From a virus: a DNA stretch of 38,900 nucleotides. This document shows, piece after piece, positions 9,082-27,676 of the stretch. The position numbers and the translations under genes are program-made. Each line of letters starts with the position of its first letter. Within the stretch, counting starts at the first letter, position 1. The stretch spans positions 1-38,900 of the IMG/VR virus record IMGVR_UViG_3300042309_001427. One strand, given 5' to 3'. Under the pieces are notes generated by a model. It searched no databases, had not been told where the DNA came from, and worked only from the letters and a program-made list of their open reading frames with translations.

Positions 9082-9804
9082 ATGAAACCGCCGACCCTAA
9101 AACAGATAGGAGATGCCCTTGGTATGTCCGCTCCTGCTGTCCACAAATTCAAAAACAAAGGGATGCCAGTGTCTTCCGTTGAAGAGGCCGCTGCGTGGTA
9201 TAAGCGCAACGTAGGCCACCGCCGCAAGGAAAGCGCCAAGTTGACCACAGGGCTAACCGAACCGCTGGCAGGTTTTTCTACAGAGGCAACCGAACCGCCG
9301 CACGATTCCGCTTCAGAAGAACCTGAATCTCCCGGAGCCTCCCCAGGAAATTCTGGCGCGACGCGCGCGGTCGAGGCCGTAAAGCGGGCGGAGGCCGTAG
9401 CCGCCGCCGAAGTTATACCTACCGACTCTGAAAGTTGTCGTGAGGCTTTGAAAGAGGCCAGAGAGCTTCGCAAGTTTGCTCGCCAGATGGTTGCGCGATG
9501 CAATCAAAACGGCGACATGGAAATGGCGAGGCGGTGGACGCAGACGCACCAACAACTTCTGGCGCGGCAGGCCGTCTTGGAAAGCCAGTTTCGCAACCTG
9601 CTCGACAGGGATGGAGAAACAATGCCGTTCTCTGCCGCCGAGGCCCGTTTCCGCACCGTTCTTCAAGACTTGAAGATGTTGGCAGCCGCCATGCCTTCCG
9701 CTCTTGCCGCCAAGGTGAATCCGCAAGACCCACTGCACGCCCAAAAACTTCTTGAAGAATGGCGAGACAAAACGCTGTTCAAATCACTTTATGCAAACAA
9801 CTAA
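9082..9804 (+). CDS. Terminase small subunit, Nu1-like (240 aa)
   Basis: Residues 5-45 (TLKQIGDALGMSAPAVHKFK, GMPVSSVEEAAAWYKRN) form the winged-HTH used by lambda Nu1-type small terminases to recognise the packaging site. A Pro/Glu/Ser-rich linker (60-100) is followed by a long helical part (110-240), probably for oligomerisation and large-subunit contact. The gene precedes the large subunit, but two extra genes lie between. No Shine-Dalgarno is seen, and the stop overlaps the ParB-domain gene start by 14 bp. Confidence 0.65.
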   Translation: MKPPTLKQIGDALGMSAPAVHKFKNKGMPVSSVEEAAAWYKRNVGHRRKESAKLTTGLTEPLAGFSTEATEPPHDSASEEPESPGASPGNSGATRAVEAVKRAEAVAAAEVIPTDSESCREALKEARELRKFARQMVARCNQNGDMEMARRWTQTHQQLLARQAVLESQFRNLLDRDGETMPFSAAEARFRTVLQDLKMLAAAMPSALAAKVNPQDPLHAQKLLEEWRDKTLFKSLYANN

Positions 9805-10423
9805 AACCATCGAAGAATTGGCGACCGACCAACTGGTTCCGTATGCCAAAAACTCACGCAAGCACGACGAGCAACAGGTTGAGGGAATAGCCGCCAGCAT
9901 CCGAGAGTTCGGCTTCTGCAACCCCGTCTTGATTGACGAAAACAATGGCATCATTGCTGGTCATGGCCGAGTTATGGCCGCGAAGCTGCTGCAACTGCCC
10001 ACTGTTCCGTGCTTCCGACTGACTCATCTGACTGACACGCAGAAGCGTGCCTACGTGATAGCCGACAACAAACTGCAAGAGGTGTCTGGCTCATGGGACG
10101 AGTCGCTGTTGAAAGCCGAGGTCGAAGCCTTGTTGGCCGAGGACTTTGATTTGCAAATCATTGGAATTGGCGAAGACGAAATCAGCGATTTGCTGACCAA
10201 CGAACCGGAACAGGGCGGTCTTGAGATACCGCGCATGGAATTGCAGCCCTACGAGAAATACGACTACTTGATGTTCTTGTTTGATGATGTGCAGGAATTT
10301 GAAAACGCCTGCGAACGCTTCAACATCCAGAAGGTCATGGTGCAATACACCGACAAATGCAAGAAGGTTGGCCTTGGTCGCGTGTTGAAAGGATCGCAAC
10401 TGCTGGAGGCGCTGGTCAAATGA
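9791..10423 (+). CDS. ParB/sulfiredoxin-fold domain protein (210 aa)
   Basis: Residues 9-105 match the ParB N-terminal domain: LVPYAKNSRKHDEQQVEGIA, then GFCNPVLIDENNGIIAGHGR with the conserved G-H-G-R CTP/nucleotide loop, followed by the AYVIADNKL helix. In many phages this domain is fused to or beside a DNA methylase. Here the C-terminal half (PYEKYDYLMFLFDDVQEFEN and onward) has no methylase motifs. ATG at 9791 is internal to the end of the small terminase gene. It overlaps the GT-A gene by 4 bp, so the pair is probably made together. A DNA-binding or DNA-modification role is inferred. Confidence 0.75.
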   Translation: MQTTKTIEELATDQLVPYAKNSRKHDEQQVEGIAASIREFGFCNPVLIDENNGIIAGHGRVMAAKLLQLPTVPCFRLTHLTDTQKRAYVIADNKLQEVSGSWDESLLKAEVEALLAEDFDLQIIGIGEDEISDLLTNEPEQGGLEIPRMELQPYEKYDYLMFLFDDVQEFENACERFNIQKVMVQYTDKCKKVGLGRVLKGSQLLEALVK

Positions 10424-11133
10424 AGCTGGTTATTCCAAGCAAGGGCAGGTGGGAAACCGTTGGCGACAAAAGCCTCAAGCTGTTTCCCGATGCCTGGTTG
10501 TGTGTCGGTGAGTCTGAGGCGCAACGCTACGTTGATGCCACGGGCCACAAAAAAATCATGCCGCACGCCGACGACCTTGTTGGTATTGGGCCGCTCCGCA
10601 ACTGGATTGTCGAAAACAGCAAAGAGGACACGGTGGTCATGTTGGACGACGACATCGAGTGCGTTTTTGACCAAACCAAATATCACCGCGTCAAGATTGT
10701 CGCCCCCTGGCATTGCATGGCGGTGTTGGAGCGAACCGCGATAGCTTCCAAGGATGCTGGCTGCAAATTGTTCGGCTACGCGCAAATGCCCACGCCGCTG
10801 AACTACAGGCCGCACAAGCCGTTTAACTTCAACACATGGATGGGCGGGGTTGTTGGCGTTCACGGCAAAACAACCAAATGGGACAACAACCTTTTGTTGC
10901 GCGCCGACATTGACGCCTGCCTTAACAGCTTGATGAAAGATCGCGTCCTTTGGAGTGATGGCCGCTATGTTTTTATCCACAAAAGATTTGTGGGTCGGGG
11001 GGGCAACAACACCAACCGCACCAACGAACGCCACCGCATCGAGATTGATTACGTCAAGCGGCGTTGGGGTTGTTACATCAAAGAGAAACAGGAGAAAGGC
11101 ACGATTCGCTTGATCGTTAAGGTGACGCGATGA
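10420..11133 (+). CDS. GT-A glycosyltransferase, TET-associated (TAGT)-like (237 aa)
   Basis: The start MKLVIPSKGRWETV, then GPLRNWIVENS and VVMLDDDIECV (D76-D78 acidic cluster) give the IPSxGR...RN...LDDD order of phage TET-associated glycosyltransferases, predicted to put sugars on oxidised or hydroxymethylated bases. The middle (FNTWMGGVVGVHGK) could shape the acceptor pocket. No TET/JBP oxygenase or hydroxymethylase is in the window, so either such an enzyme lies elsewhere or the acceptor differs. It lies between the ParB-domain gene and large terminase with 4-bp overlaps on both sides. A generic GT2-like enzyme is the alternative. Confidence 0.55.
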   Translation: MKLVIPSKGRWETVGDKSLKLFPDAWLCVGESEAQRYVDATGHKKIMPHADDLVGIGPLRNWIVENSKEDTVVMLDDDIECVFDQTKYHRVKIVAPWHCMAVLERTAIASKDAGCKLFGYAQMPTPLNYRPHKPFNFNTWMGGVVGVHGKTTKWDNNLLLRADIDACLNSLMKDRVLWSDGRYVFIHKRFVGRGGNNTNRTNERHRIEIDYVKRRWGCYIKEKQEKGTIRLIVKVTR

Positions 11134-12935
11134 AGCTGCTCGACTTGCTGGAGCGCAGCTTGCGCGATGTGTTCGCTCCGCTTGACCCGCGCAGCGTTGA
11201 CGATTGGGCCGAAAACGAGATTGTGTTGTCCCGCCGACAGACCGAAACGCCGGGGCCATATAGCACGTTGCTGACGCCCTACGTCAGAGAGCCGCTGCAA
11301 GCCTTTGCTGATCCGCGCGTGACAGACTTGACGCTGTGCTTTGGCTCGCAAACCAGCAAGACCACCACACTAATGATTGGCACTGCTTGGCGCATTGTGA
11401 ACAACCCTGCGCCGACTATCTGGGTCATGCCGACTGAGCATTTGGCTCGCAGCTTTAGCGAAAATCGTTGGCAACCGATGGTGGACGATTGCTCCAAGTT
11501 GGTTGGCATCAAATACAGCAACCGCTTCAAGGTTTTGGAGCAGCAATTTAGAGATTGCACGATGACGTTTGTCGGATCGAACTCCCCGGCAAACCTTGCT
11601 TCGCGTCCTGCGGGTCTTTTGATTATGGACGAAACAGACAAGTTTGCTTTGCCGTCGCAGCGCGAGGCAGGGGCGGTGGCGCTGGCGGAAAACCGCACCA
11701 AGTCCTACACCAATGCTTTGCGGGTCAAGGCCAGCACGCCGACCACGCAGGAGGGCGAAATTTGGCAGGCGTTCACAGACGGCGACCAAAGATTTTTTTT
11801 CGTCCCGTGTCCGCATTGCGGCCACAAGCAGCGGTTGCTTTGGAAGCAGGTCAAATGGGACGAGTCTGCCAAAAGCGATGAAAACAAATGGGACGAGAAC
11901 GTCATCAAGAAGACGGCGTTCTACGAGTGCGAATCGTGCCAAGGCCGCATTGAAAACGGTCACAAGACGGCAATGCTCCGCAATGGCGAATGGAGGCCAA
12001 CCAATCCTAATGCCGCACTTGGCAGGCGCAGCTATCACCTCAATTCACTGTATGCCCCTTGGAGGTCGTGTGGCTTTGGCGAGTTGGCCGTGTTGTTTCT
12101 TCGCCAAAAGGCATCGCTGCTTGGTCTGCAAGATTTTGTAAATAGTGCCTTGGCCGAGCCGTGGATTGACGATCTTGAAAAAGAACAAAGCAAGCCCGTT
12201 GGGGCGTCTGATTATTTGATGGGCGACAGATGGGAAGAGGCGATGGTCACGTTTATGACGGTGGACGTTCAAGATGCCGGGGGTCGCCACTTTTGGGCCG
12301 TAATCCGCGATTGGGCTTCTGATGGGCGGAGTAAGGGGCGATGGGCGGGCCGTGTTGAGTCGTGGGACGATCTTGAAAAGCTGCGCGAGGACTACGAAAT
12401 CCGACCCGCCTGCGTGTTTGTGGACAGCGCGTTCGCTACCCGCGAGGTCTATTTTGCTTGCTGCCGCTTTGGTTGGGTGGCCCTGCGGGGCAGCGACAAC
12501 GAATCCTTCACTTGGAGCGACAATGGCAGGAAGGTCATGCGCGCCTACAGTCGCCCGGAGCGCGGCGATCCGAGCGGGGGCGGCGGATGGGACACCCGAA
12601 CTCTTAAACTCCGCACCTGTCCTGTTATCAAATTTGCCAAGCCGACCACTGAAGACATTTTGGCCGCTCTGATGAGGGCCGAACCGCGCACATGGGAATA
12701 CCCGCGCGATTTTCCTATCGACTGGCATGAACACATCGCCTCAACGGTGAAGCGCAAGCTCCGCAACGCCATCACAGGGGCCGTAACGCACAAGTGGGTT
12801 GTTGTTCATTCCAAGCCCAATCACCTACGCGACTGCGAGAATATGCAGGTCTGCGCCGCACTACTTGGCAAGCTATTGGCGGTGCGGCCAGAAGTCCGGT
12901 CGCAGCTTGGTGTTGTTAGCAATCAATCGGAATAG
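11130..12935 (+). CDS. Terminase large subunit, lambda GpA family (601 aa)
   Basis: The ATPase domain has a variant Walker A, G72-S-Q-T-S-K77-T, and Walker B LLIMDE with D167-E168, as in GpA-type packaging motors. A zinc-binding insert follows (CPHC 227-230, CESC 267-270). The C-terminal nuclease domain shows D379 in MTVDVQD and D432 in CVFVDSAF. It cuts concatemeric DNA and drives it into the prohead. Length fits the family. The GpA type predicts cos-like cohesive-end packaging. It is followed by accessory genes, not gpW and portal as in lambda. Confidence 0.92.
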   Translation: MKLLDLLERSLRDVFAPLDPRSVDDWAENEIVLSRRQTETPGPYSTLLTPYVREPLQAFADPRVTDLTLCFGSQTSKTTTLMIGTAWRIVNNPAPTIWVMPTEHLARSFSENRWQPMVDDCSKLVGIKYSNRFKVLEQQFRDCTMTFVGSNSPANLASRPAGLLIMDETDKFALPSQREAGAVALAENRTKSYTNALRVKASTPTTQEGEIWQAFTDGDQRFFFVPCPHCGHKQRLLWKQVKWDESAKSDENKWDENVIKKTAFYECESCQGRIENGHKTAMLRNGEWRPTNPNAALGRRSYHLNSLYAPWRSCGFGELAVLFLRQKASLLGLQDFVNSALAEPWIDDLEKEQSKPVGASDYLMGDRWEEAMVTFMTVDVQDAGGRHFWAVIRDWASDGRSKGRWAGRVESWDDLEKLREDYEIRPACVFVDSAFATREVYFACCRFGWVALRGSDNESFTWSDNGRKVMRAYSRPERGDPSGGGGWDTRTLKLRTCPVIKFAKPTTEDILAALMRAEPRTWEYPRDFPIDWHEHIASTVKRKLRNAITGAVTHKWVVVHSKPNHLRDCENMQVCAALLGKLLAVRPEVRSQLGVVSNQSE

Positions 12936-13029: not shown

Positions 13030-13587
13030 ATGCAACTAAGAACGATACGCGGTTATGTGTTTGGCGAGGTAAGCTCTGCCATGCAAAAAGCAATTCGGCG
13101 CGGCGACACGCAGCTTGCCGGATATTGGGCGTTAGAACTGTGGGCCAGTGGGTTTGGCAATTACGTGTGGAAGCGCTTGCTGACTGTCAGTGCGGAAGAT
13201 TGTTGGGGCATCATCACTGCTGAAGTCAAAGCCCTGCATGACGGTTACGAACTCGTCAATGCTCATCTCAAGGGCAAGCAGGCCAAGGGGCGCATTTTCA
13301 TTTCTAAAGCTGTGATCTTGCTGTGCGCGGCCAAGAAAAATCGTGACGCCGATCACCTGCAAAACTTTGTCTATGACAAGAACATCGGTATTGACCCCGA
13401 CACTTTGGCCGACGAGCTACGCAACGCCCCAGAGTATGCGCCGATCCCAGACTATGCTTATGACTGCCACACCAAGCGCGGTCGCATGGCGGGCCGCACC
13501 AAGGCCGAGTTTTTCCGCGCCGAGCAAGAAGCCCTCAACCCGCTTCAGCTCGGCCTGTTTGACCACCTCGCAACACACAACCAATGA
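13030..13587 (+). CDS. Stand-alone domain resembling RarA/MgsA C-terminus (185 aa)
   Basis: The core SAMQKAIRRGDTQLAGYWAL, then SGFGNYVWKRLLTVSAEDCW resembles the helical segment after the ATPase domain of RarA/MgsA and clamp-loader-type AAA+ proteins (pattern: AxxxxxRGxDxxxAxYWxxELxxxGxxxYxxxRLxxxASED). No Walker motifs are present, so it is only the oligomerisation-like part. The later region (DPDTLADELRNAPEYAPIPD) and C-terminal LNPLQLGLF tail are its own. ATG at 13030 is preferred because an upstream extension would overlap the terminase gene and the promoter. A partner for a polymerase or host clamp loader is a guess. Confidence 0.5.
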   Translation: MQLRTIRGYVFGEVSSAMQKAIRRGDTQLAGYWALELWASGFGNYVWKRLLTVSAEDCWGIITAEVKALHDGYELVNAHLKGKQAKGRIFISKAVILLCAAKKNRDADHLQNFVYDKNIGIDPDTLADELRNAPEYAPIPDYAYDCHTKRGRMAGRTKAEFFRAEQEALNPLQLGLFDHLATHNQ

Positions 13588-14082: not shown

Positions 14083-14102
14083 GCCCCCTGTTTTTCGGGG
14101 GC
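14083..14102 (+). terminator. GC hairpin, possible terminator
   Basis: GCCCCC (14083-14088) pairs with GGGGGC (14097-14102) around a T-rich 8-base loop, just after the stop at 14079. No T tract follows the stem, so termination is uncertain. Confidence 0.4.
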
Positions 14103-14175
14103 TATACCCATACCCTGCGGCCCATTTTACTCTTATGGGCCACCTGTAAGCCGTGAGGTTTTACGGCTGATAAAC
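14098..14175 (+). repeat. Cassette-flanking repeat, copy 1
   Basis: It opens with GGGGCTATACCCATACCCTG and closes with CGGCTGATAAAC (14164-14175). Copies 2 and 3 at 17490 and 17596 share both ends, but here the inner part is 24 nt longer. It lies upstream of the amidoligase cassette. Confidence 0.6.
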
Positions 14176-14192
14176 GATCTCTCAAATTTGAG
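14119..14192 (+). other. Structured noncoding stretch (three inverted repeats)
   Basis: Three foldable elements follow each other: GGCCCAT/ATGGGCC (14119-14125 with 14135-14141), AGCCGT/ACGGCT (14149-14154 with 14163-14168) and the palindrome CTCAAATTTGAG (14181-14192). The 225-nt gap 14080-14304 may thus encode a structured RNA leader or hold protein sites. Nothing further is seen in 14193-14304. Confidence 0.45.
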
Positions 14193-14304: not shown

Positions 14305-14487
14305 ATGAGAACACAGAACAAACTGAGCGCATGGATTGCAACAAATCCATCCACTCCTGATCGTCAATCAGCTCTGCGCGCTGCGTCAGAGCTTCGTCGG
14401 CGCGGCCACGCTGTTCGAGTCCGCAAAATCAACAACGTCATTGGCACGGGTCGCTGGAGCGCGGTCTGGGTCATTACCAACTCCTGA
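14305..14487 (+). CDS. Small protein opening the amidoligase cassette (60 aa)
   Basis: ATG at 14305 is followed at once by AACACAGAACAAAC (14310-14323), identical to the leader element at 3676 but here inside the coding frame. The product (LSAWIATNPSTPDRQSALRA, then ELRRRGHAVRVRKINNVIGT) looks like helix-strand-strand. No family is recognised. The amidoligase starts two bases after its stop. Confidence 0.5.
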   Translation: MRTQNKLSAWIATNPSTPDRQSALRAASELRRRGHAVRVRKINNVIGTGRWSAVWVITNS

Positions 14488-14489
14488 CC

Positions 14490-15494
14490 ATGAAACCTGT
14501 CGATATCCTCGCGTCAGCCGTTCGCTTCGGCATTGAGATTGAAACATCAATCCCTGTTGCATCGAACGTGTCGGTTGGTCAATATCATCGCGGTATCTCA
14601 GTGCAGTTTGGTCGCCGCGCCAGCGATGGCGCGATGACGGAAGCCCCGCGCTTCTGCCAGACCGATGTTAACGGCGATACCCGCGATGGCGGTGTTTGCT
14701 GGTCTGCCGAGCGCGATGGCTCCATCACGCATGGCTCCGGTCGCATGGCCTGTGAGTTTGTCTCTCCGATCCTGCGTGGCGCGGCTGGCGTTCAAAACGT
14801 CATTGATTTCGTGGCGTGGCTCAATGGCATTGATGCCCACGTTAACGATTCTTGCGGCGTCCATGTGACCGTCAGCGTGGACAGCATACTTGAACGCTGC
14901 GGTGGCACCCCGCCGACCCCAGCGACATTGCAACAGATGCGCGCCGACTTCGCGCAGAAGTTGGCCCACATTGCGCAGTGGCACTCGCGCGCCATATACG
15001 GACAGACTGGCACTGGCCGTCACGAAAACAATTACAGCCGCCAGTTTCACTCGACTGTTGCGATTCACGCTCGCGCGATGGTGCGCAACCCCGACCTGTC
15101 TGCCAAGACGGCTGCGGCCAATGCGTGTGGTCGCGGCATGGTCAACTTCAACAAGCTGTTCAGCCACGGCGTTGTGGAGTTCCGCGCCTTTGCTGGCACG
15201 TTGAACATCCACAAGATTCTTCACCACATCGCCACCGCGATTGGCCTGTGCCGCCGCGCTCATGAGGTGAAGTTGCTTGGCGCGTTCACCAAAAACAAAG
15301 TGCAGCAACGCCGCACTGCCACCGCCACTGATGCACTGCTGTTCATGCATGAGTATCTCGGATGGCGCGGAAGTAAACGTCCGTATGCGCTTGGCCTGTT
15401 TGGGCCGCTGCACACGCAATTTAGGTCGTATCGCAAAACTGCGCTGCAGATGTGCGCGAAGTTTGATGCGCGATACCCGACCGCAAATCTTTGA
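14490..15494 (+). CDS. Amidoligase (COOH-NH2 ligase family, 334 aa)
   Basis: Family marks are in order: VRFGIEIET (11-19), SAERDGSI with D76 and S78, CEFVSPIL with E89, CGVHVTV with H125, and VVEFRAFAGTL with E230 and R232. This is the glutamine-synthetase-like amidoligase family (PF12224 type), which joins a carboxylate to an amine using ATP. The following class II glutamine amidotransferase could supply ammonia, and an AAA+ ATPase completes the cassette. The target could be a small metabolite, a peptide or a protein side chain and is not visible from sequence. Aravind and co-workers predicted such ligases to make unusual peptide bonds or tags. Confidence 0.82.
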   Translation: MKPVDILASAVRFGIEIETSIPVASNVSVGQYHRGISVQFGRRASDGAMTEAPRFCQTDVNGDTRDGGVCWSAERDGSITHGSGRMACEFVSPILRGAAGVQNVIDFVAWLNGIDAHVNDSCGVHVTVSVDSILERCGGTPPTPATLQQMRADFAQKLAHIAQWHSRAIYGQTGTGRHENNYSRQFHSTVAIHARAMVRNPDLSAKTAAANACGRGMVNFNKLFSHGVVEFRAFAGTLNIHKILHHIATAIGLCRRAHEVKLLGAFTKNKVQQRRTATATDALLFMHEYLGWRGSKRPYALGLFGPLHTQFRSYRKTALQMCAKFDARYPTANL

Positions 15495-15549
15495 GCGGTA
15501 TGTGCCGCTCAATGCAACGAACACAGAACACAGAAAGGAACATAATTGT

Positions 15550-16152
15550 ATGTGCGTAATACTGGTAAGCCCCGCAAATGCGCGGCCCGATAGAAAGTTA
15601 ATCAATGCGTGTCACGCAGCCAACCCGCATGGCGCGGGCGTGGCGTGGCGCGAAGGCAAAGAAGTCCACTGGATGAAGAACCTGTCGCCCGATGAGGTCG
15701 AGACACTTGTCGATCAGATTGCTGGCGAGTGCGTGATTCACTTCCGCTGGGCGAGTGTGGGCAAGGTCTGTCCCGAACTCTGCCATCCGTTTCCGGTGGA
15801 TCGCACTGCGTCCACCCGACTGAGCGGCAGCGCACAGCGCGTGTTGTTTCATAATGGCACGTGGTCTGGCTGGCAGGCCGCGCTTGAGTATGTCGAGGAC
15901 AAGCAGGAGCGCAAAATTGGAGGGCCGATGAGCGACACCCGCGCCGTTGCCCTGTTGGTTGCTCAGATGAGCGATCCTAACACCCTCAAGCATATTGCGG
16001 GACGGTTCGTCCTGTTCTCGGCCCTAAGCACCAAACTGTATGGCGATTGGCGCAGCTATCGCGGTATGCGCGTGTCCAACCTCAACTTTATGTATGAGTT
16101 GGAGCGCGACGCCCGCGACTACGCCGAGCCGGAACTCAACTTGGAGGACTGA
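15550..16152 (+). CDS. Class II glutamine amidotransferase (200 aa)
   Basis: Start at 15550 puts Cys2 right after Met (MCVILVSPAN). Met removal would expose the N-terminal nucleophile needed by Ntn-type glutaminases. Further marks are HFRWASVG (64-71), CHPF (78-81) and VLFHNGTWSG (98-107), matching the substrate-holding Arg and the Asn-Gly of the oxyanion site. The protein would release ammonia from glutamine. The adjacent amidoligase is the likely user. The length is that of a lone glutaminase domain. The leader repeats ACACAGAACACAG, then AAAGGA gives a weak ribosome site. Confidence 0.78.
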   Translation: MCVILVSPANARPDRKLINACHAANPHGAGVAWREGKEVHWMKNLSPDEVETLVDQIAGECVIHFRWASVGKVCPELCHPFPVDRTASTRLSGSAQRVLFHNGTWSGWQAALEYVEDKQERKIGGPMSDTRAVALLVAQMSDPNTLKHIAGRFVLFSALSTKLYGDWRSYRGMRVSNLNFMYELERDARDYAEPELNLED

Positions 16153-16155
16153 CCT

Positions 16156-16527
16156 ATGCGTAGCTACAAGATTGTTGCAAGCAGAGGCGACCAAGTTGTG
16201 TTTGATGACCGGATACAGGCCGCCACCCCCCGCGATGCTCGGCGTGAGCTTAAACGCGCCCTCAACGTGGATTCTCTTACGGGCATTGTGTATGCCATTA
16301 CGGAGATTCCGGTGGAACTGATCCGCGCCATCGTGCGCGATGAGATGTCTCGCAAGCACGATGCTCGCGTTGAGCGAGGCAAGCGCCGTAGCGAGGCTAT
16401 TGCCGCCGTCGAGAAGGCGTCACCTGTAGAAAGTCACAACCCCGCAGACGGCGAGGTGCCGCCTGCCGAACTAAAACCCATCCTGCGGCGCACCCGCCGC
16501 ACGGATTCCAAAAAGGAGGACAAGTAA
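16156..16527 (+). CDS. Cassette protein of unknown function (123 aa)
   Basis: It starts 3 bases after the amidotransferase stop. The N-terminal part (YKIVASRGDQVVFDDRIQAA, then RDARRELKRALN) alternates strand and helix. After residue 65 it becomes highly charged and probably disordered, ending RRTRRTDSKKEDK. No family is recognised. Because it lies between amidotransferase and AAA+ genes with almost no gaps, it may be the substrate or carrier of the ligase, or an adaptor for the ATPase. Confidence 0.5.
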   Translation: MRSYKIVASRGDQVVFDDRIQAATPRDARRELKRALNVDSLTGIVYAITEIPVELIRAIVRDEMSRKHDARVERGKRRSEAIAAVEKASPVESHNPADGEVPPAELKPILRRTRRTDSKKEDK

Positions 16528-16529
16528 CC

Positions 16530-17465
16530 ATGCCAAACGATAACGAAATGATGATGGGCGACGAACAGATGCCAGCGGAAGATCACCGCAATCCTCGTCG
16601 CAGGTCGCGCGACCGCGAGCCGCAGCCTAATGAAGTCGGCGTTCATGTTGTGCCAGCAGCACATCACGCGCTCGATCTGTTGGTGTTGCAGGATGAGGTG
16701 CGCGCAGAGATAGCAACAGCCGTCCGCAGCGTAGTGATGGCCGACCAGTTGGAGGCCGCTTGGAAGCTGAGCCAGATCCGCCCGATGCAGGGGCGGTGCG
16801 TGATCAACTTCTACGGCCCATCGGGGACAGGCAAGACCCGCGCTGCGCTTGGCATTGCGTTGCAGCTTGGCAAGCCGCTGTATCAAGTCGATTACAGCGC
16901 GATTGTCAGCAAATACCTTGGCGACACCGCCAAGCACATTGTGCTGGCGTTCAAGCAAGCCAAGGAGGCTGGCGCGGTGCTGTTCTTCGACGAGGCCGAC
17001 TCGCTCTTGAGCCGTCGTGTTGCCACCGGAGAAAGCTGCTCGACCTCGATCAACCAGAACCGCAACACGCTCATGCAGGAACTTGATCGTTTTGACGGCG
17101 TGGTGATTATGACCACCAACCTGTTTGGCAATTACGACGAGGCCATGCTGCGCCGTATTGCGCGGCACGTTGAGTTCAAGTTGCCCGATGAGTCGATGCG
17201 CCAACGTCTGTTCCGGCTGCACCTCCCCAACCCCGAACGCACGCCTGCCGATTTGACCAGCGCGGCTCGCGCGGCAACGGGCTTGTCCGGTGGCGACATA
17301 TTAAACGTGTGTTTGAACGCAATGGAGGCCGCCTCGACCGATCCCGACCCCGCCAACTGGCGCGTGACGGACGATTTGTTGATGGCCCACGTTCGCAAAG
17401 TGAAGTCGGCCAAGTCTGCCCATTCGGGGCAGGACAGGCTGCCCGCACCGACCGGACTTAATTAG
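16530..17465 (+). CDS. AAA+ ATPase, classical AAA clade (311 aa)
   Basis: Walker A is GPSGTGKT (96-103) and Walker B AVLFFDEADSLL with D154-E155. Sensor 1 is MTTN (194-197), likely arginine fingers are R208-R209 in AMLRRIARHVEF, and sensor 2 lies near GLSGGDILN. This is the FtsH/Cdc48/Vps4-like kind that remodels proteins as a hexamer. The first 40 residues are charged and disordered, possibly an adaptor. A strong ribosome site (AAAAGGAGG, 16511-16519) precedes the ATG. It ends the cassette before two terminators. It could unfold or position the amidation target. Confidence 0.85.
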   Translation: MPNDNEMMMGDEQMPAEDHRNPRRRSRDREPQPNEVGVHVVPAAHHALDLLVLQDEVRAEIATAVRSVVMADQLEAAWKLSQIRPMQGRCVINFYGPSGTGKTRAALGIALQLGKPLYQVDYSAIVSKYLGDTAKHIVLAFKQAKEAGAVLFFDEADSLLSRRVATGESCSTSINQNRNTLMQELDRFDGVVIMTTNLFGNYDEAMLRRIARHVEFKLPDESMRQRLFRLHLPNPERTPADLTSAARAATGLSGGDILNVCLNAMEAASTDPDPANWRVTDDLLMAHVRKVKSAKSAHSGQDRLPAPTGLN

Positions 17466-17473
17466 GGTCACAA

Positions 17474-17518
17474 AGCAGCCGCAGGGCGTGGGGCTACCCA
17501 CATACCCTGCGGCTGTTT
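17474..17518 (+). terminator. Strong terminator after the AAA+ gene
   Basis: CAGCCGCAGGG (17476-17486) pairs with CCCTGCGGCTG (17505-17515), enclosing a second 5-bp stem GTGGG/CCCAC. TTTCTGCGTTT follows. The loop contains the start of repeat copy 2. Confidence 0.65.
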
Positions 17519-17543
17519 CTGCGTTTAATTACGGCTGATAAAC
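17490..17543 (+). repeat. Cassette-flanking repeat, copy 2
   Basis: GGGGCTACCCACATACCCTG opens it and CGGCTGATAAAC (17532-17543) closes it. The distance between the two blocks is 42 nt, the same as in copy 3. It directly follows the AAA+ gene. Confidence 0.65.
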
Positions 17544-17563
17544 GGCCCAAAAACTACGCTCTT

Positions 17564-17595: not shown

Positions 17596-17648
17596 GGGGC
17601 TACCCACATACCCTGATAGGCCCAAAACGGCCAATTTCGGCTGATAAA
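17596..17648 (+). repeat. Cassette-flanking repeat, copy 3
   Basis: It begins with the same 20 bases as copy 2 and ends CGGCTGATAAA (17638-17648), again 42 nt apart, while the inner sequence differs. The remaining noncoding stretch to 17689 shows no other clear feature. Confidence 0.65.
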
Positions 17649-17689
17649 GGGGCCAAAAGCGGCTGCCCAACATAGCCCAAGACGGCCTT

Positions 17690-17708: not shown

Positions 17709-18677
17709 ATGGTCGTTGTTACGGGCTGCGCTGGGTTTGTTGGATTTCATGTTTCTCTGGCCTTGATGCGGCTGGGTGAAGCCGTCTTGGGCATTGATAA
17801 TTTGTCCGACTACTACAGCGTTGATTTGAAGCGATGGCGGTTGCGCCACTTGCAAACCAATTCGGCGTTTATCTTTTATGAGTGCGACATTGCCAATCAG
17901 CTTGCACTGCAGCGTTGCGCTTTTTTGAAACAGACTAAATCGTGCATTCATTTGGCCGCACAGGCTGGCGTGCGGCACAGCGTTAGAAATCCACAAAGCC
18001 ACGTTGTAAACAATGTGCTTGGCACGACAAACATTCTTGAAGCGGCCCGAACCTACCGCTGGCGAGGCCTTGTTGTTGCCTCAACTTCTTCCGTGTATGC
18101 CAATCAGCCGCCGCCGTTCCGAGAAGACATTGTTGATCTGCGCCCAATTTCACCATACTCCGCTTCAAAGCTCTGTTGTGAAGTGATGGTTGATGCCTGG
18201 CGGCGCACGCACGACATTCCTGCAAGCGTTGTGCGGTTTTTTACAGTGTATGGCCCCGCTGGCAGACCCGATATGAGCGTTTTTAGATTTATTGAAAACA
18301 CTATTACGGGGCGCAAAATAATCGTGTATGGCGACGGCAACCAGCGCCGAGATTTCACTTACGTCGATGATATTGTTGCAGGAGTGTTGGCCGCTCATGC
18401 GAATCCATCTGTCGGTATAGTCAATCTTGGCGGAGAGCGGTGTTATCCGTTGAGCGTTCTTATTGATATTATTCAGCGGAGCGTTGGCAAGCGGTCGGAA
18501 GTTTTGCACTTGGATGCCGTTTCTTGCGATATGCAGGAAACATTAGCTAACACCACCAAAGCTGCTGATTTGCTCGCATGGAAAGCACAAACTGGCCTTG
18601 CGGAGGGCATTAAAAAAACTGTGGAGTGGCACATTTGCAACAGGAATGTCTTGCAATCCATTATTGATTGTGCATAG
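17709..18677 (+). CDS. NAD-dependent nucleotide-sugar epimerase (322 aa)
   Basis: The N-terminus VVVTGCAGFVG is the GxxGxxG Rossmann loop, followed by D30 (GIDNLSDYY) for the NAD ribose. SSVY (127-130) and YSASK with Y150/K154 supply the short-chain dehydrogenase catalytic triad. The YYSVDLKRWRL stretch and overall length resemble UDP-glucuronate 4-epimerases. It would prepare an activated sugar, perhaps for the phage's glycosyltransferases at 24160-27676 or the TAGT-like protein. Its base composition looks more AT-rich than neighbours, suggesting separate acquisition. The exact substrate is not determined. Confidence 0.85.
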   Translation: MVVVTGCAGFVGFHVSLALMRLGEAVLGIDNLSDYYSVDLKRWRLRHLQTNSAFIFYECDIANQLALQRCAFLKQTKSCIHLAAQAGVRHSVRNPQSHVVNNVLGTTNILEAARTYRWRGLVVASTSSVYANQPPPFREDIVDLRPISPYSASKLCCEVMVDAWRRTHDIPASVVRFFTVYGPAGRPDMSVFRFIENTITGRKIIVYGDGNQRRDFTYVDDIVAGVLAAHANPSVGIVNLGGERCYPLSVLIDIIQRSVGKRSEVLHLDAVSCDMQETLANTTKAADLLAWKAQTGLAEGIKKTVEWHICNRNVLQSIIDCA

Positions 18678-24159: not shown

Positions 24160-25848
24160 ATGCAAATTCAGTCGAAGGTCGCCGTGTGCCTTATATGCGG
24201 CAATGAGGAGGCCATTATTGGCCGCGCTTTAGACAGCGCCTTCACCGTCAGCGACACCGTTATTGTCGTGCGTGCTATCGGGGGCCAGAAGCCCGACAAA
24301 TCGCTCCAGATTGCCCGTGAGCGCGGTTGCATTGTCGGGGAATACCACAATAGCCCTGCCACCGCATCGTGGCCTTTCGTGGACGATTTCGCCGCCGCCC
24401 GCAACGAAGCCTTCCGGTTAGCCGCAGTAACGCCCGCCGAGTGGTTCATGTGGATGGATTGCGACGATACCCTGCCCGAAGGGATGGGTGAGACGATCAA
24501 GCAAGCCTGCACCGATACCAAAGAGGATTGGATTCTGGCCGAGTATGAGTTGCCGCAGCATTGCAAGTCCGTCCTGCGCGAGCGCCTATTCCGTCGCGGC
24601 ACGGCGGCATGGTTCAACGGCGTCCATGAAAAGTGCATCCCGGTCACGGAGGACAAAGACAAGGACACCCTGCAAGTGCGCGTCCGCAAGGACATCCGCA
24701 TTGTTCACCAACCCCTCGACGCCAAGACCGGATCACAGGAACGCAACCTCAACATCCTGCTCTGGCGCTATCAAGAGACGCAGCACATCGCCTTTTATCT
24801 GCACTACGAGTTCTTCCTGCTCGGCAAGCGCGAGGAGGCGGTCAAATACGGCTTGCAAGCCCTGCGCCTCGACAATCTCGACGGCGTTTATCGCTACGAG
24901 GTCTTGCTGAACCTCGCCATGATGGCCGAGAAAAACGAACACGGGCAGGATTTGCTGCAACGCGCGATCAAGCTATGTGACTCCCGGCGCGAGGCATATC
25001 ACTTGCTCGCCCTCTTGCAAATGGACGCGGGGCAGACCGCCGAAGCGGTCAAGACTGCCGAGCATTGCCTCACCATCAAGGAGCCGAAGATTTACGAATG
25101 GACGCACCGCCCCGACATCTACGGATGGAAGGGTCTTGCGACTCTTGCTTGGGCGCATCGCGCTAATGGCGACGAGGACAAGGCTGCGGAGATCGAAGAG
25201 AAGATGCTGGAAGACGGCGGCAAGCCCCGCATTTCCCTATTGCACGCCACCCGTGGCCGCTGGTCGCAAGCAATACAGACAATGAATCTGTGGGTGTCCC
25301 GCGCCACAAACCCGATGGCCGTAGAGCATATTTTCGCCATAGACGAGGATGACGAGGAAGCCAACGAAAAGCTGGCGCGGTTCCGGGGTGTAATGTCTCA
25401 CAGCAGTTGCTCGGTAGGGGCGTGGAATGCTGCCGCCGATCATGCTTCTGGCGATGTGCTGATCCAGATTGCCGATGATTTTGAACCTCCGGTCGGTTGG
25501 GATCGCCTCATTGTGGATGCGTTAGGCGGCGACATTTTCGCACCTAAAGTGCTGCGCGTTTCGGACGGCAATCGCACGGACGGGTTAATCACTTGCGCCA
25601 TCGTCACTCGCCGCTGGCACGACATTCACGGACTGTTCCACGGGGAATATCGCAACGTCTATTCCGACAACGATCTGACCGCAACCGCGACCAAGGCCGG
25701 GGCAATCATCGAAGCCCCGCAAATCGTCATCCGCCACCATCATCCGTTCTTTAACGACAAGGTGAAGATGGACGCGACTTATGAGCGCGGCAATGACCCC
25801 GCCGAATACGAAAGAGCAAAGGCAATCTTTCAAGCCCGCCACCCATGA
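24160..25848 (+). CDS. Two-domain glycosyltransferase with TPR-like middle (562 aa)
   Basis: The N-terminal GT-A domain (1-180) starts VAVCLICGNEEAIIGRALDS and holds the metal-binding WMDCDDTLP (D100, D102, D103), as in GT2 enzymes. Residues about 200-330 are helical pairs resembling TPR repeats (REEAVKYGLQALRLDNLDGV; AEAVKTAEHCLTIKE). A second GT-A-like domain (about 355-560) begins ISLLHATRGRWSQA and has IDEDDEEA and QIADDFEPPVGWD. Such proteins glycosylate proteins or surface polymers. Being made with late genes, virion components are plausible acceptors. The next start overlaps its stop (ATGA). Confidence 0.78.
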   Translation: MQIQSKVAVCLICGNEEAIIGRALDSAFTVSDTVIVVRAIGGQKPDKSLQIARERGCIVGEYHNSPATASWPFVDDFAAARNEAFRLAAVTPAEWFMWMDCDDTLPEGMGETIKQACTDTKEDWILAEYELPQHCKSVLRERLFRRGTAAWFNGVHEKCIPVTEDKDKDTLQVRVRKDIRIVHQPLDAKTGSQERNLNILLWRYQETQHIAFYLHYEFFLLGKREEAVKYGLQALRLDNLDGVYRYEVLLNLAMMAEKNEHGQDLLQRAIKLCDSRREAYHLLALLQMDAGQTAEAVKTAEHCLTIKEPKIYEWTHRPDIYGWKGLATLAWAHRANGDEDKAAEIEEKMLEDGGKPRISLLHATRGRWSQAIQTMNLWVSRATNPMAVEHIFAIDEDDEEANEKLARFRGVMSHSSCSVGAWNAAADHASGDVLIQIADDFEPPVGWDRLIVDALGGDIFAPKVLRVSDGNRTDGLITCAIVTRRWHDIHGLFHGEYRNVYSDNDLTATATKAGAIIEAPQIVIRHHHPFFNDKVKMDATYERGNDPAEYERAKAIFQARHP

Positions 25849-26444
25849 GCTATTCACAGAACAACGAAGAAGCGGTCTTGCTCGAAAACTTTGGCGACAA
25901 GGCAGACGGCACATTTTTGGAGATCGGCGCATTTCATCCGACCCGCCACTCCAACACTCGCGCGCTGATTGAGCGCGGCTGGTCTGGCGTCATGGTCGAG
26001 ATGTCGCCCTACGCGCTGGTCGATCTGATCGAAGCCTACAAGGACAACCCGCGCATTCGCATTGTTGCCGGGGCCGTGACGATTAACGCGCAACCGCCCA
26101 CATCGGTATGGCTGATGCCAAAGGATGCGGACAATGACGGCGCGATTAGCACCACCGAGACATGGCATCGGGATAAATGGGCGGGGCGCGTGAGCGGAAA
26201 GCACATTGCCATGACCGCCGCGACGATCAGCATGACCGAACTCATGTGGCTGCTGCCTCCGCAAATCGACCTCGTGAGCATCGACACCGAAGGAACCAGC
26301 GCGCAAATCGCCAGCGCATTCGACTTTGACCGCTTCGGAGTCAAGGCCGTAGTTCTGGAGCATGACGGCGCGCAAGAGATTGCAATGCCCGCCTCCTTCC
26401 GGGTCGCCGCGATGAACGCCGAAAACGTGATTTTCCTACGATGA
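25845..26444 (+). CDS. FkbM-like SAM methyltransferase (199 aa)
   Basis: SYSQNNEEAVLLENF leads to the SAM-binding loop GTFLEIGAFHPTRHSNT (22-38) and VMVEMSPYAL. IDLVSIDTEGTSAQI carries the acidic VSIDTEG motif typical of FkbM-family enzymes, which often O-methylate sugars. Between two glycosyltransferase genes, it probably methylates a sugar that they add. Overlaps on both sides are 4 bp. Confidence 0.78.
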   Translation: MSYSQNNEEAVLLENFGDKADGTFLEIGAFHPTRHSNTRALIERGWSGVMVEMSPYALVDLIEAYKDNPRIRIVAGAVTINAQPPTSVWLMPKDADNDGAISTTETWHRDKWAGRVSGKHIAMTAATISMTELMWLLPPQIDLVSIDTEGTSAQIASAFDFDRFGVKAVVLEHDGAQEIAMPASFRVAAMNAENVIFLR

Positions 26445-27025
26445 AGCGCGCACCGACACCCGATCTGTCCGTCCTCATCCCGACCATCACCGAACGGGAG
26501 GCCGAGGCAAATGTCCTCTACCGCTCGCTGGAGAAGCGCGTTGCGGGCCGGGATGTCGAGATCCTCATGCTGCGGGAAAACCTCTTGTGCGGCATCGGGG
26601 AGGCCCGCAACAAGCTCCTGCGCGCAGCGGGCGGGAAATATATCACGTTCCTCGATGACGATGATGCGCTGCTCGACGGATACTTTACCCTCGTTCTTTC
26701 CGCAATCGCGGAGGATGCAGACGTAATCACCTACGACCAGCACGCCGTTGTGGACGGAGCCGAAGGTCAAATCACTTGCTTCCTCGGGGCGCAGCTTCAA
26801 GCCTTCCGCCCCGGTGGAGTAGCGACCCGACCTCCGTGGTTCTGGTGCGCGTGGCGGCGGGAGTTAGCTTGCGCTTACGCCGTTCCGCAAGTTCGTCGCA
26901 ACGAGGATGTTCTTTGGCTGCGGCATCTTTGGGCCGAGGCCGAGACGGAGACGCACATCGACCAAGTGCTGCACCGCTACCAGTTCGATTCGGCCAAGAC
27001 TACTCTGCAAAAGCCCAACGCATGA
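26441..27025 (+). CDS. GT2-type glycosyltransferase (194 aa)
   Basis: The chain LSVLIPTITEREAEANVLYR, ENLLCGIGEARNKLLRAAGG and ITFLDDDDALLDG (D72-D75) gives the GT-A nucleotide-sugar fold with a strong acidic metal site. It is shorter than many GT2 enzymes and ends soon after the acceptor region (RNEDVLWLRHLWAEAET). It is coupled to the methyltransferase by an ATGA overlap. Acceptor unknown. Confidence 0.75.
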   Translation: MKRAPTPDLSVLIPTITEREAEANVLYRSLEKRVAGRDVEILMLRENLLCGIGEARNKLLRAAGGKYITFLDDDDALLDGYFTLVLSAIAEDADVITYDQHAVVDGAEGQITCFLGAQLQAFRPGGVATRPPWFWCAWRRELACAYAVPQVRRNEDVLWLRHLWAEAETETHIDQVLHRYQFDSAKTTLQKPNA

Positions 27026-27031
27026 AGGGGC

Positions 27032-27676
27032 ATGAAGTGTTCTTTTAACTTTTTGGTTTGCCGCGCCCTGCACAAATCTCGCACCCGTCAGCTTTGGGAC
27101 ACGACTTGCGCCATGCTGAAGCGAGATCATCCGGACTGCTCGGTGACTCTGCTCGGCGGCTTTGACCCTGTGGACGAGATCCCTGTCGTTCGGGTTTGCG
27201 ACTCCGACGATTACGATTCCTGCCACGATAAGGTGTGGTCTGTGCTTCAACGCAACACAGGCGAGGAAGCCGAGTGGTTTATCATTGCGGACGATGACAC
27301 ATGGTTCAACCTCCCGAATCTGGCATCCATTCTTGCGGTCTTGCCGCAACAAGAAGCGGTGATCTGCGGACACATCGGACCCGCGCCTGTGGGAAACAAG
27401 GTCATTCTGCACGCGCACGGCGGCTGCGGGATAATTGTCTCTGCTTTGGCCCTGCGAGCATTGCGCTCTGTGTCTATGCCTTGGCCTCGGCACACAATGT
27501 TTAGTGACGTTACCCTTGCGATTTTGGCCAATATGGCTGCAATCCGCTGGTGCAGCATTGTGAATATGCACGGCCCCGGGGCACCTATCGACAAGATTGA
27601 TTTGAGGGACACGGTATCCGTTCACGTAAAGGATCGGGTCAGTTTTAGTAGGCTATACGAAGCCTTGACAGTGTAG
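27032..27676 (+). CDS. Fringe/GT31-like glycosyltransferase (214 aa)
   Basis: EWFIIADDDTWFNLPNLASI (81-100) copies the DDD metal motif context of Fringe and beta-1,3-galactosyltransferases (WFxxxDDDTxxxxxNLxxxL). HAHGGCGIIVSALALRAL matches the GGAGxxxS acceptor-site segment and FSDVTLAI the later acidic motif. In animals Fringe extends O-fucose. A phage member would extend another sugar. Short for the family but all core motifs are seen. Last gene of the island, just before connector genes. Confidence 0.6.
   Translation: MKCSFNFLVCRALHKSRTRQLWDTTCAMLKRDHPDCSVTLLGGFDPVDEIPVVRVCDSDDYDSCHDKVWSVLQRNTGEEAEWFIIADDDTWFNLPNLASILAVLPQQEAVICGHIGPAPVGNKVILHAHGGCGIIVSALALRALRSVSMPWPRHTMFSDVTLAILANMAAIRWCSIVNMHGPGAPIDKIDLRDTVSVHVKDRVSFSRLYEALTV
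27665..27670 (+). promoter_or_regulatory. TTGACA start-associated box (13 nt before ATG)
   Basis: It lies inside the last codons of the Fringe-like gene, exactly 13 nt before the connector-gene ATG at 27684. Confidence 0.45.

Follow-up and report, generated by a model that had tools for sequence, protein, structure and literature searches.

An amidoligase–glutaminase pair kept beside a ParB–TAGT packaging module in phages, with a possible role in amide tailoring of phage DNA

What might a phage make with an ATP-dependent ligase and a glutaminase encoded beside its packaging genes? The question is raised by the virus record IMGVR_UViG_3300042309_001427 of IMG/VR; the window analysed here is this entire 38,900-base record. 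An earlier note, made from the sequence alone, had described a packed cassette at 14305-17465 and proposed an amidation or peptide-tagging system. All five open reading frames (ORFs) were found again at the same positions, with inter-ORF gaps of 2, 55, 3 and 2 nucleotides (nt) in order: a 60-amino-acid (aa) ORF, an amidoligase (AL), a class II glutaminase (GAT), a 123-aa protein (P4) and an AAA ATPase. The last four are real genes, tightly packed. The genes, folds, conserved active sites, AL–GAT order and surrounding module were established computationally. AL and GAT probably form a pair that makes amides. We tentatively favor the view that the pair is coupled to the glycosyltransferase TAGT of that module and adds an amide to a TAGT-dependent modification, the likely target being phage DNA. 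The cassette is laid out as follows.

14305..14487, + strand: 60-aa ORF, a doubtful gene with no homologue
14490..15494, + strand: AL, 334 aa, carboxylate-amine ligase of the glutamine synthetase/GCS superfamily (PF12224, motifs, fold)
15495..15549, + strand: AL–GAT gap, 55 nt, with the Shine-Dalgarno-like AGAAAGGA ahead of GAT
15550..16152, + strand: GAT, 200 aa, stand-alone class II glutaminase with nucleophile Cys2 (conserved residues, model, PDB fold matches)
16156..16527, + strand: P4, 123 aa, corresponding to the N-terminal domain in a conserved family of phage proteins (alignment; the helix-turn-helix, HTH, of its relatives is missing)
16530..17465, + strand: classical AAA ATPase, Cdc48/VCP-like, with pore-loop-like SKYLGDT; a frequent but optional partner

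AL matched the Pfam family Amidoligase_2 (PF12224) with 38.9 bits against a cut-off of 22. A single-sequence scan with AL found no relatives, and profiles were used instead. In 50 homologues spanning 22-62% identity to the window protein, G14, E16, E18, W71, D76, S78, E89, S92, P93, G123, H125, N219, E230 and R232 were invariant; they include every residue that the earlier note had read as an amidoligase motif (E16, E18, D76, E89, H125, E230 and R232). AL carries the hallmarks of Amidoligase_2, namely the GxExE, His and ExR motifs and a GS/GCS-type fold (GS, glutamine synthetase). Since a profile search of PDB sequences with AL gave no match, a fold search was needed. The AlphaFold model (pLDDT 95.5, pTM 0.94) had as its top PDB matches the bifunctional glutathione synthetase GshF, glutamine synthetase, PafA, GCS and YbdK, which were weak by score, yet all from one superfamily. 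Structure prediction thus returned a ligase fold, modeled as glutamine-synthetase/GCS/PafA-type. The best viral matches of AL were other phage amidoligases.

GAT was sub-threshold against the Pfam family GATase_4 (17.2 bits, cut-off 23); as with AL, a single-sequence scan found no relatives, so that profiles were used, and a profile search of PDB sequences found no match, so that a fold search was needed. Its AlphaFold model (pLDDT 95.9, pTM 0.90) matched the glutaminase domains of GFAT, GlmS, PurF and AsnB with E-values down to 2.8e-7 and a probability of 1.00, which gives the Ntn glutaminase fold. C2 was conserved in at least 90% of 52 homologues, and the glutamine-binding residues R66, N102, G103 and D129 were invariant in them. 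The Ntn glutaminase with Cys2 suggested earlier is therefore backed by both fold and active-site residues.

Profile scans with AL detected 53 viral and 43 genome loci, and a scan with the GAT profile detected 98 viral stretches. After removal of near-identical loci (97% DNA clusters), 108 distinct AL loci from viruses and prophages remained. Of the 92 distinct loci that extend far enough to tell, 83 have GAT as the gene directly after AL; among the nine exceptions, three are artefacts of ORF starts and others are cut or broken loci. The pairing, which the earlier note had proposed to look for in relatives, is thus kept in at least 83 of these 92 loci. The AL–GAT gap is mostly 12-83 nt among relatives, so the 55-nt leader in the window is ordinary. 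A scan with the AAA protein found 10 contigs, and six of these show the order AL, GAT, P4, AAA seen in the window. This recurrence of the gene set in many other phages excludes chance. Together, the motifs, the folds and the conserved adjacency support the predicted activity of a glutamine-fed, ATP-dependent amide-forming pair. Nearly all AL genome loci belong to Verrucomicrobiota (Akkermansiaceae, Prosthecobacter, Chthoniobacter and others; one is from Planctomycetes), suggesting that the window phage and its relatives probably infect Verrucomicrobiota. In the prophage of Chthoniobacter flavus Ellin428 (L063, L189), AL reads as two ORFs and the terminase large subunit (TerL) as three; this prophage appears degenerate.

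What, then, is amidated? The neighborhood of the pair bears on this question. In the window, four genes precede the cassette.

9791..10423, + strand: ParB-N domain protein (PF02195), adjoining TAGT in relatives
10420..11133, + strand: TAGT, TET-associated GT-A glycosyltransferase (PF20691, E=3.5e-13; DDD motif)
11130..12935, + strand: TerL, gpA type (PF05876, PF20454)
13030..13587, + strand: RarA/MgsA C-terminal-like protein (PF12002, E=0.0014, below cut-off; kept beside TAGT)

AL–GAT is part of a packaging-linked module that also comprises ParB, TAGT, TerL, a DNA ligase and RarA-like parts. ParB–TAGT is found upstream of AL in most loci. Most often the order is TerL(-)-ParB-TAGT-RarA_C-ligase-AL-GAT-P4-RarA_AAA-AAA; the same set occurs reshuffled as ParB-TAGT-RarA_C-AAA-AL-GAT-TerL, ParB-TAGT-AL-GAT-RarA_C and RarA_C-AL-GAT-P4-ParB-TAGT. 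TAGT was present in 60 and ParB in 58 of the 77 distinct loci with at least 6 kb upstream; a RarA-like AAA protein was present in 40 of the 60 loci with enough downstream sequence, and the classical AAA protein in 24. A divergent AL–GAT clade has ParB, TET/JBP and TerL together; two records of this clade (G015 and G016) have TAGT directly upstream of AL–GAT, apart from ParB. The RarA/MgsA-like protein appears to be split into AAA and C-terminal parts in most relatives, as in locus L006 (5813-6574 and 28-297), and the window retains only the C-terminal part. In T6-type phages, glucosylated hydroxymethylcytosine is reported to receive its second glucose from an enzyme of the TAGT family (PMC13216743; PMC13390438).

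In the favored reading, AL and GAT would work together as the two subunits of one amide-forming enzyme that depends on glutamine. Cys2 of GAT would hydrolyse glutamine and the ammonia would pass to AL, which would activate a carboxylate with ATP and convert it to an amide. The pair may in this way tailor the product of the ParB-TAGT-RarA-like-TerL module at packaging time, and the outcome would be a modification that is both glycosylated and then amidated, plausibly carried by phage DNA. HTH-bearing P4 relatives, the AAA protein and RarA-like ATPases might help with DNA access or remodeling. The amide could be formed on a uronic acid, with its carboxylate as acceptor; the sugar could come from an enzyme encoded just downstream of the cassette.

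17709..18677, + strand: NDP-sugar epimerase with UDP-glucuronate 4-epimerase-like motifs (GVRxS, RFFTVYGPxGRPDM), a possible sugar supply

Both motifs are common to PDB 6zl6 and MoeE5, which we take to be UDP-glucuronate 4-epimerases, although their PDB names alone do not say so; the best-scoring PDB chain is 5u4q, labelled dTDP-glucose 4,6-dehydratase. Downstream epimerases carrying GPxxRPD were also found in several relatives, and a Microbacterium phage has the order ParB-TAGT-UDP-glucose dehydrogenase-like-AAA. A uronic acid would fit as acceptor because its carboxylate is what an amidoligase needs. The specific version of this chemistry, in which TAGT puts a uronic acid on a base and AL–GAT converts its carboxylate to a uronamide or an amino-acid amide, is nonetheless improbable in our estimate. 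In the literature surveyed, no description of such a DNA base was met, and no paper linking AL with DNA modification or ParB was found, many subscription papers lying outside the coverage.

Several results weigh against a role in DNA modification. TET/JBP is absent from the window and was found in 3 of 22 records, all of the divergent AL–GAT clade. The hydroxymethylase family PF00303 was found in 0 of 22 records, window included. The C5 methyltransferase family PF00145 was found in 1 of 21 relatives, the window being outside that search, and no C5 methyltransferase was among the Pfam hits to window genes. The window thus has no recognised TET/JBP, hydroxymethylase or C5 methyltransferase to supply the acceptor of TAGT, and canonical TET–TAGT chemistry in the window was rejected on the same grounds. 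That no known enzyme here makes the hydroxyl for TAGT is the main weakness of the DNA hypothesis. Phages with ParB, TAGT and RarA and without AL–GAT are common, so that AL–GAT is to be seen as an add-on to that module; AL–GAT also occurs elsewhere without annotated TAGT or ParB (PMC3890496 among the sources). The link to the TAGT module may thus be positional. The loci also share ancestry, and counts such as the 60 of 77 for TAGT measure conservation, not independent trials.

An alternative target is the cell surface: AL–GAT would amidate a carboxylate in the host's peptidoglycan or in sugars of the cell surface and so block superinfection. AL–GAT cassettes of RIO-1-, LUZ24- and phiEco32-like phages have been interpreted as peptidoglycan modification (PMC5498523; PMC3890496; PMC10580990), and the window also encodes the epimerase and, beyond the capsid region, genes of GT2, FkbM-like and Fringe-like types. 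However, GGCT (PF06094), the defining partner in those cassettes, was found in 0 of 22 records, whereas the control genomes matched; membership in the peptidoglycan cassettes was rejected on this absence, although a similar way of working is possible. The second ligase, COOH-NH2_lig (PF14395), was likewise found in 0 of 22 records, but there the control was also silent. Moreover, the genes sit in the packaging module and not in an early region, and their conserved neighbors (ParB, TAGT, ligase, RarA-like proteins, terminase) are DNA-related. A surface target is, as we see it, unlikely.

The same neighbors bear on the peptide-tagging idea of the earlier note, in which a PafA-like ligase would tag a protein with a small protein or ammonia, and the AAA ATPase would unfold the product. 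The fold matches of AL include PafA and Dop. The AAA domain, which the earlier note had correctly called classical, is unambiguous (E=1.7e-24) and resembles Cdc48 and proteasomal ATPases; the gene adjoins AL in several orders, including AL-AAA in locus L012, and precedes AL–GAT in another clade. For these positions the AAA protein is probably a partner of AL–GAT, though not an essential one: the partnership suggested by the earlier note is retained as regards gene order, but only for the minority of testable loci, 24 of 60, that have the gene. This minority also speaks against protein tagging, as do the full set of glutaminase residues, in place of peptidase features, in GAT and the lack of a recognised protease in the window. 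A conserved small tag is missing too. None of the related loci holds a homologue of the 60-aa ORF (best tblastn E about 1), and the ORF shows no codon-position GC signal, so that it may not be a gene. P4 belongs to a family present in 64 of the 108 distinct loci, whose members are about 200 aa long and end in an HTH, by alignment; the P4 homologue of locus L008 gave a weak HTH_30 match, and the window copy is truncated and has lost the HTH. Given the HTH of its relatives, the family looks DNA-binding. Both proteins had been put forward as substrate or tag, and both were rejected in that role, the one having no relatives and the other having relatives that end in an HTH. No Pup-like protein was seen. 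The tagging proposal had also missed the setting of the pair, which is linked to ParB–TAGT, RarA-like genes, DNA ligase, terminase and, in one clade, TET/JBP; this link favors DNA or sugar modification over protein tagging, which we regard as rather improbable.

Two further explanations concern metabolism and defence. AL–GAT could make a soluble amide metabolite for host or phage, as part of small-molecule nitrogen metabolism, an interpretation suggested for the planctomycete phage ZRK32 (PMC10945688); the tight packaging-module link in phages with few metabolic genes speaks against it, and we give it slightly less credence than protein tagging. Alternatively, the AAA protein could mark an anti-phage system of the IetAS type with AL–GAT as an unrelated neighbor. 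Its AAA domain resembles IetA and was matched by IetA/IteA profiles, but with 102.6 bits it stays far under the family cut-off of 510, and no subtilisin-like IetS was recognised in the window. Membership in IetAS was rejected on these grounds, and the explanation is very improbable. Relatives of the AAA protein were also seen in five large virus contigs of 100-356 kb (L013, L014, L015, L156, L157); AL and GAT were not seen within their fetched flanks.

Two other observations concern the surroundings of the cassette. A structured-looking intergenic element, GGGGCTAYCC...CATACC ... CGGCTGATAAA, has three copies in the window that bracket the cassette, where 0.11 would be expected by chance.

14098..14184, + strand: intergenic element, copy 1, upstream of the cassette
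17490..17552, + strand: intergenic element, copy 2, downstream of the cassette
17596..17658, + strand: intergenic element, copy 3, downstream of the cassette

It recurs in relatives (L019 at 6408, L027 at 6414, L164 at 6406 and L192 at 7797), in the gap between RarA_C and ligase or between ligase and AL, and has no credible family match in Rfam. Past the capsid region, the stretch 24160-27673 encodes two GT2 proteins, one of them GT2-TPR, together with an FkbM-like methyltransferase and a Fringe-like glycosyltransferase. The capsid genes of the TET/JBP clade, too, are followed by a GT2-TPR gene. These genes are possible candidates for virion or DNA glycosylation.

In sum, phage AL–GAT cassettes have been known since 2009 (Iyer et al. 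2009, cited in PMC10580990), and the form found here differs by the absence of GGCT. The substrate of the known cassettes has only been guessed, as peptidoglycan or metabolites. This study ties the pair to ParB–TAGT, terminase and sometimes TET/JBP over about 100 distinct loci in several gene orders. The DNA hypothesis predicts that virion DNA contains a modified nucleoside bearing an amide. Should this hold, phage DNA modification would gain a further tailoring chemistry, and an orphan enzyme pair that is widespread would have an explanation.

Among known systems, PafA/Dop-Pup-Mpa has in common with the cassette a ligase of the same broad fold superfamily and an AAA partner; here, in contrast, a glutaminase takes part, the AAA protein is optional, and there is no Pup-like protein or proteasome. 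The TET/JBP-TAGT-ParB DNA hypermodification loci, such as those of Nonlabens phage P12024L and Pelagibacter phage HTVC112P, have ParB and/or TAGT in common with the module, and TET/JBP with some relatives; AL–GAT is not annotated in these two phages, and the window, unlike such loci, lacks TET/JBP as well as any recognised C5 methyltransferase. The peptidoglycan cassettes of RIO-1, phiEco32 and LUZ24/tf/PaP3-like phages likewise place an Amidoligase_2 ligase near a class II glutamine amidotransferase. Compared with them, the cassette of the window is without GGCT, has a minimal GAT of a single 200-aa domain, and occupies a site in the packaging module together with ParB–TAGT, RarA-like and AAA proteins and a P4 of an HTH family.

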